A stretch of 64,000 bases of DNA from Mizugakiibacter sediminis (GTDB lineage Bacteria; Pseudomonadota; Gammaproteobacteria; Xanthomonadales; Rhodanobacteraceae). Below the pieces are notes generated by a model that did no database searches, had not been told where the DNA came from, and worked only from the letters and a program-made list of their open reading frames with translations. This document shows positions 31,495 to 33,479 of the stretch, piece by piece (positions within the stretch are counted from its first letter, which is position 1; every line of letters starts with the position of its first letter). The stretch spans positions 4,041 through 68,040 of the forward strand of contig NZ_DF970239.1 of the NCBI RefSeq assembly GCF_000953855.2, written 5' to 3'. The position numbers and the translations under genes were made by a program.

Positions 31495-32871
<1,377 letters not shown>

Positions 32872-33030: not shown

Positions 33031-33414
33031 TCAGCGGACGCCGTCGTGGCGCTCACGGAAAGCCCGCGCCTGCGCCACCAGCAGGCCCCACCACGCCACC
33101 TCGCCGACGCGGTAGGCGAACCCTTCCGGCGACCACAGCGCGTCGCCGTCGATCCGCCAGCCGTCCCACGCCGGCGCCAGCGCGCCCAGGTCGCCGAGGC
33201 GCTTGAGCCGCAGCAGGCGCACCGCCGCCCACGGCACGCGCTGACGGCCACGGTCCCAGCGGCGCACCGTGTCCACGCTGACACCGAGGAACGCCGCCGC
33301 CGTGCGCCGGCTCAGCAGGCAGGACAACCGCAGTTCGCGGAAGCCTTCCGCGCTGACCAACCACACGCGCCGACGCCGTCGCCGAGAGGGGGGCACTTGT
33401 CCGGGAGCAGACAC
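33031..33414 (-). CDS. Phage-associated HTH protein of VC1465/DUF3653 type
   Basis: A 127-residue basic protein. After an arginine-rich start comes F-R-E-L-R-L-S-C, then an HTH region (A-A-A-F-L-G-V-S-V-D-T-V-R-R-W-D) and the family tail G-D-L-G-A-L-A-P-A-W-D-G-W. I recognise this as the small protein family linked to filamentous phages and other elements that integrate at dif, some of which (XafT-like) activate XerCD recombination. The reading begins at a GTG at 33414. The candidate dif site lies only 38 bases upstream of this start. No other phage genes are seen, so it is either a remnant of an integrated element or a resident protein of the dif region. Confidence 0.7.
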   Translation of the reverse strand: MSAPGQVPPSRRRRRRVWLVSAEGFRELRLSCLLSRRTAAAFLGVSVDTVRRWDRGRQRVPWAAVRLLRLKRLGDLGALAPAWDGWRIDGDALWSPEGFAYRVGEVAWWGLLVAQARAFRERHDGVR

Positions 33415-33451
33415 AGCAACGGCCGCCCGCTCAGGCGCTTGGCCTTCCTGT

Positions 33452-33479
33452 GCTTCGCATAATGCATATTATGTAAAAT
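33452..33479 (+). other. Candidate XerCD dif site
   Basis: The 28 bases read as an XerC arm GCTTCGCATAA, a centre TGCATA and an XerD arm TTATGTAAAAT. By eye this is 24 of 28 identical to E. coli dif (9/11, 5/6, 10/11). It stands out as an AT-rich patch in very GC-rich DNA, and a VC1465-type gene lies beside it. The direction of most genes changes here: minus-strand genes dominate to the right. It could be the chromosomal dif or an attachment site left by an integrated phage. Confidence 0.82.

Follow-up and report, generated by a model that had tools for sequence, protein, structure and literature searches.

A lone xafT-like gene beside the chromosomal dif site of Mizugakiibacter sediminis, very probably the remnant of a Xer-exploiting mini-element

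In a 64-kb stretch of the Mizugakiibacter sediminis genome (hereafter the window), we found that positions 33452-33479 are the terminus dif of the chromosome, the site for dimer resolution, and that the annotated interval 33031-33479 is correct. On the XerC-arm side of this site lies a single gene of the VC1465/XafT family, very probably all that survives of the genes of a TLC-type mini-IMEX.

A dif site spans 28 bp, consists of an XerC arm, a 6-bp centre and an XerD arm, and occurs once per chromosome. The forward-strand 28-mer GCTTCGCATAATGCATATTATGTAAAAT (33452-33479) divides accordingly into the XerC arm GCTTCGCATAA (33452-33462), the central region TGCATA (33463-33468) and the XerD arm TTATGTAAAAT (33469-33479), with the arm limits set by alignment with E. 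coli dif and the established dif anatomy. It shares 24 of 28 positions with E. coli dif, as an earlier note on this DNA had counted; the runner-up position in the 64-kb window reaches 16, and the best scores in first-order Markov shuffles of the window (n = 20) were 15-17. The two genomic checks proposed in that note also came out in favor of the site. GC skew changes sign across dif on the 160-kb contig (+0.017 to the left, -0.010 to the right), and so does the polarity of KOPS, the motifs that guide and orient FtsK: GGGNAGGG occurs in forward and reverse orientation 6 and 1 times to the left of dif and 1 and 14 times to the right (Fisher p = 6e-4). The congeneric species has ratios of 10:1 on the left and 1:10 on the right, and pooling both species gave p = 5e-8 (Fisher). 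No second dif was found at ≤3 mismatches in the organism's own draft assembly (3.12 Mb, 149 contigs, 99.9% complete). This genome encodes XerD (354.6 bits, above the curated cut-off) and a second XerD-like recombinase (283 bits) that is probably XerC. The stretch is AT-rich and highly symmetrical, features that a chance palindrome within a GC-rich genome would share, but 24 identities against at most 17 in shuffles, uniqueness in the genome, the KOPS switch at this very point and matches to a strict dif pattern in 148 of 233 related genomes make chance a vanishingly improbable source of the site.

The adjoining gene (33031-33414, minus strand) encodes 127 amino acids from a GTG at 33414. Its product scored 79.2 bits against NF040522, 'VC1465 family Xer recombination activation factor' (curated cut-off 70), and 26.9 bits against Pfam DUF3653 (cut-off 22.4); the match to HTH_31, at 24 bits, fell under the cut-off of 27. 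AlphaFold2, run on a 12-row alignment, predicted a confident helical HTH core at residues 22-73, with pLDDT values above 90 in this N-terminal domain and block means of 84-93 over residues 21-70; the strand-helix part that comes after it was predicted with less certainty. The earlier note had assigned this gene to a family linked to elements that integrate at dif, an assignment upheld by this profile match and by the dif and half-dif boundaries of mini-elements in relatives (see below). It had placed the gene 38 bases from dif; 37 bases separate the site from the first start codon. A second in-frame GTG lies six codons inside the gene, aligned with the ATG of the congeneric copy, and these two are the only starts ahead of the domain. 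Upstream of 33414, the frame stays open (YALCEAQ..., 33415-33471, minus strand) through the XerC arm and central region of dif until it is closed by a TAA that occupies bases 1-3 of the XerD arm. The original start codon of the element's gene was presumably replaced by dif at integration. A frameshift relative to the relatives was considered and proved wrong, the gene being in the ordinary YTLCE frame. We found no sigma-70-like promoter upstream of the gene. Searches for relatives of the protein returned none in phages and one distant match on a Photobacterium plasmid; a single 17-residue match in IMG/VR was taken as chance. The PHROG family phrog_1668 labels XafT-like proteins 'tail assembly protein', a label that looks wrong.

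We surveyed 233 genomes of the host's bacterial family, in which the named loci include Rhodanobacter, Dyella, Frateuria and Fulvimonas. Homologues of xafT were present in 38 genomes and absent from 195. In 35 of the 38, the start of the xafT domain is 6-332 bp from a dif (median 45), and the gene reads away from it; dif was located by the strict pattern in 27 of these genomes and by looser variants in 8. The XerC arm of dif is strongly altered in some genera (L136, L121, L140, L153, L141 and L147); at L121 it reads TTTTGCATATGCATATTATGTAAAAT, and an element copy in the same genome bears the identical altered arm. In complete elements adjacent to dif, xafT is invariably on the XerC-arm side, and no complete element of the mirror-image type was seen. 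Remnants on the XerD-arm side, reading away from dif, do occur (L134, L146, L148, L124:678-977, L126:8027-8146 and L054:7773-7919), and L124, L126 and L054 have one remnant on each side. Two copies appear ectopic, away from any detected dif (L127:7054-8423 in G104 and L125:8001-8417 in G226), the one in G104 being accompanied by an RHH/SEC-C gene and ORF3. Outside this family, XafT-like genes with about 35% identity are found in Nitrosomonas (L234 and L235; betaproteobacteria), and XafT-like IMEXs are said to have been reported widely in gamma- and betaproteobacteria by Midonet et al. in 2019.

In about a dozen genomes, xafT sits inside complete mini-elements of 1.5-2.5 kb. Rhodanobacter sp. 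T12-5 carries tandem copies of a 1485-bp element that are 99.8% identical (L122:1-2970), and G172 carries tandem copies of 1848 bp that are 99.9% identical (L121:8054-11766); in both, the copies contain xafT, an RHH/SEC-C gene and a third small ORF, without Rep. Nine further copies, 1466-2516 bp long, lie between a full dif and a half-site made of the XerC arm and central region with no XerD arm. Boundaries of this dif/half-dif kind were found in ten of the relatives' elements, with the G172 tandem in addition. The elements fall into two classes. Class A (1466-1848 bp) encodes XafT, an RHH/SEC-C protein and a small third ORF, with no recognised Rep; the SEC-C motif of the second protein was identified by PF02810, and its RHH-like N-terminus was assigned by eye and from a weak Arc-like PHROG match. 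This protein is found in 10 of the 233 genomes, every one of which also has xafT. Class B (2097-2516 bp; L131, 2345 bp; L132, 2516 bp; L052, 2380 bp; L057, 2398 bp) combines xafT with a rolling-circle Rep (PF23343) and small ORFs, and its Rep is 34-35% identical to those of the phages Cf1c, phiLf and XacF1. The Rep is related to those of Xanthomonas filamentous phages, but we recognised neither coat nor Zot-type genes in the mini-element circles. The mini-elements are therefore most likely satellites, dependent on a helper for replication or packaging. Two candidates were discarded: ACAACCANAACCGGGG, a shared motif considered as a replication origin, has 48 scattered matches in IMG/VR, and MW202694, a 1.9-kb 'Inoviridae' entry, gave no XafT match and, with the pattern used, no dif-like attP. 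The mini-elements are the newer part of this work, and some of them may already be in the 2019 XafT paper.

When the elements are circularised, the start of xafT precedes the attP core by a few codons and the frame runs through the core in 10 of 11 circles, with ATG as the start codon and GTG in one element. The T12-5 circle, for example, reads MASKAAKA-IHYAK-LKKARRRLWLISPEGF. G172 is the exception among the 11, its xafT start being inside the element. Integration beheads xafT because the start lies on the far side of attP in these ten elements. After insertion, a stop within dif closes the frame in most cases (the XerD-arm TAA, in the YTLCE frame), and among 11 dif-adjacent complete elements 10 have no ATG from dif to the domain and 7 have no start codon there at all. 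Integration should thereby shut off full-length XafT, with a tandem copy keeping it, and we infer from these frames that loss of the start codon acts as a regulatory switch.

No element surrounds the gene in the window. We found no half-dif site at ≤2 mismatches anywhere in the 64 kb, and no second dif. Of the marks of a TLC-type IMEX, the window has no half-dif lacking the XerD arm, and the genome has no replication initiator; neither Rep nor RHH/SEC-C matches were found in it. Zot (PF05707), the pI-type morphogenesis gene that marks an inovirus prophage, also had no match in the genome, and with neither Zot nor Rep a full filamentous phage remnant in the window was ruled out. With half-site and companion genes all missing from the window, it is the relatives that speak for a mini-IMEX origin. 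Stranded genes of this kind are common there: xafT stands without other element genes nearby in 22 of the 35 dif-linked genomes. Many of these copies are cut from the far end at varied points (HMM ends 42, 68, 71, 85 and 94) or broken by stops, frameshifts or deletions; truncated or broken copies occur in G006, G018, G120, G179, G185, G197, G205 and G223. In the gene tree, lone and element copies are intermixed, with 10 changes between the two states, at least 6 of them forced by well supported branches, so the lone genes are repeated remnants. The branch leading to the gene pair of the window is long (0.54), so the parent element of the window copy is not among the elements found. The earlier note had offered as one alternative a terminus with a decayed Xer-using phage. 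The terminus dif and the decayed element are well supported, but the element was most likely a TLC-type mini-IMEX of 1.5-2.5 kb, a satellite, rather than a full filamentous phage.

The following course of events would account for the locus. A circular element of 1.5-2.5 kb, with an attP made of the dif XerC arm and central region and lacking the XerD arm, would be recombined into dif by the host's XerC and XerD, aided by the element's own XafT-like protein; activation of XerD by this protein is extrapolated from the published XafT of V. cholerae, and by the same analogy the protein of the window may activate XerD without FtsK. The product would be a regenerated dif (the element's XerC arm with the host's XerD arm) adjoining xafT, with a half-site closing off the other end of the element. 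As the xafT frame spans attP, integration would cost the gene its start and give it the stop in dif, an automatic off-switch. Later deletions would take out the far half-site and the other genes, and the dif-proximal body of xafT would be kept because it abuts the essential dif. In this genus, a new GTG or ATG start perhaps allows the protein still to be produced, with some selection acting on it, in which case the window copy would be expressed.

Comparison with the congeneric species (two species, one genome each) bears on the present state of the gene. Contigs of both species are collinear on either side of dif, and the block conserved at the locus is xafT plus dif (447 bp, 86.8%). To the left of dif, M. 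sediminis has about 1.2 kb more DNA than its congener; a PAS-GAF-GGDEF gene beside xafT (31495-32871) lies within a stretch that does not align. To the right, the congener (MAG contig JAJFUF010000010.1) has a 17-kb insertion between dif and tadA, containing an IS3-like fragment, an ATPase/helicase defence-like operon and Kdp genes (named by eye); it was rejected as an IMEX from a reading of these proteins. Between the species, dN/dS (NG86) is 0.066/0.292 for xafT and 0.059/0.308 for the neighbouring synthetase gene, differences by codon position in xafT number 11/7/24 (p = 0.004), and there is no indel within the xafT domain. From the collinearity, the substitution rates and the codon-position bias, xafT is vertically inherited and under purifying selection in this genus. 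Retention by the host is possible on these grounds, though unproven.

Three readings of the gene's history and function have to be weighed, two of which are compatible with a mini-IMEX origin. One is that the gene is an undecayed remnant with no present function, which we regard as rather probable: truncation or breakage has affected most of the family's stranded copies, the start codon is removed by integration, and no promoter was found. It has to contend with the significant third-position bias and the intact domain, next to a linker that is only 67% identical between the two species. The other is that the genus has domesticated xafT, which would trigger XerD at dif without FtsK or influence invading IMEXs. 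The common position and left neighbourhood in both species, a dS equal to that of the neighbouring gene with a dN/dS of about 0.1-0.2, the aligned GTG and ATG starts and the restriction of conservation to xafT and dif all speak for it, but the comparison covers two genomes and a short time (dS about 0.3), there is no promoter match, the starts in M. sediminis are GTG, and vertical retention is seen in no other lineage, the lone Rhodanobacter-like copies of G187 and G188 being on opposite sides of dif. We therefore hold domestication to be possible but lean against it.

In the last reading, the family's common ancestor already had xafT as a host gene that served XerCD recombination, and many lineages later lost it. 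The close linkage to dif in 35 genomes and the strong conservation of the protein would fit, but the gene is missing from 195 of 233 genomes, is found inside mobile and sometimes tandem elements, and occurs as lone copies, many of them broken, on either side of dif; these are dispersed over the tree, where at least 6 changes are needed. We consider this reading highly unlikely. The earlier note's second alternative, a host role of the family in XerCD recombination, falls with it, as stranded copies arose repeatedly. Vertical inheritance and purifying selection leave room for a narrower host role, limited to this genus.

The mini-IMEX origin can be set against known users of Xer recombination. 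Acinetobacter Xer (pdif) modules are mostly on plasmids and are not known to carry XafT. Like the mini-elements they are small DNA units bounded by Xer sites, but they are resistance-gene modules flanked by those sites (PMC7399989). Among the closest is TLCphi, a Vibrio cholerae satellite whose activation factor is XafT (VC1465; Midonet et al. 2019, as cited in PMC9765430). In its attP, the XerC site and the centre are almost the same as in dif, the XerD site is degenerate, and recombination is XerD-first (PMC4246890). The relatives' elements resemble it in their XafT-family protein, half-dif attP, integration at dif and tandem copies, and those of class B also carry a replication initiator. 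They differ in size (1.5-2.5 kb) and, in class A, in having no recognised Rep; their xafT frame crosses attP, which may be a further difference. The window differs further in holding a stranded gene alone, without an element. The Xanthomonas phages XacF1, Cf1c and phiLf have a Rep homologous to that of class B, but are full inoviruses of 6-7.3 kb. The attP of XacF1 is a half-dif, CACTTCGCATAATGTATAGAGGG, with the same structure as that of the mini-elements, and lies inside the regulator ORF12, which is split by integration; loss of the 5' part of the split ORF delays integration and destabilises the prophage (PMC5666396). An attP within a coding region that integration splits is thus common to both, although ORF12 has no XafT-family match and only ORF11 gave a weak partial match (21 bits). 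RS1/CTXphi shares Xer-dependent insertion at dif and differs in its folded single-stranded attP, XerC-only catalysis and irreversibility (PMC4246890).

An odd gene beside dif thus leads to the remnant of a family of Xer-using elements that look smaller than those described, and suggests a way in which they could secure their own integrated state. In the boldest form, which we think unlikely as a whole, Xer-exploiting satellites of very small size (down to 1.47 kb, with xafT and two small genes) would carry an off-switch in attP, and the beheaded activator of this genus would have regained a start and been kept by the host, either to drive XerCD independently of FtsK or to influence IMEXs as they arrive. 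The natural series of full, tandem, beheaded, truncated and retained stages offers material for testing what XafT does outside Vibrio. Should the retained gene act on XerD, FtsK would not be the only trigger of chromosome dimer resolution in this genus.
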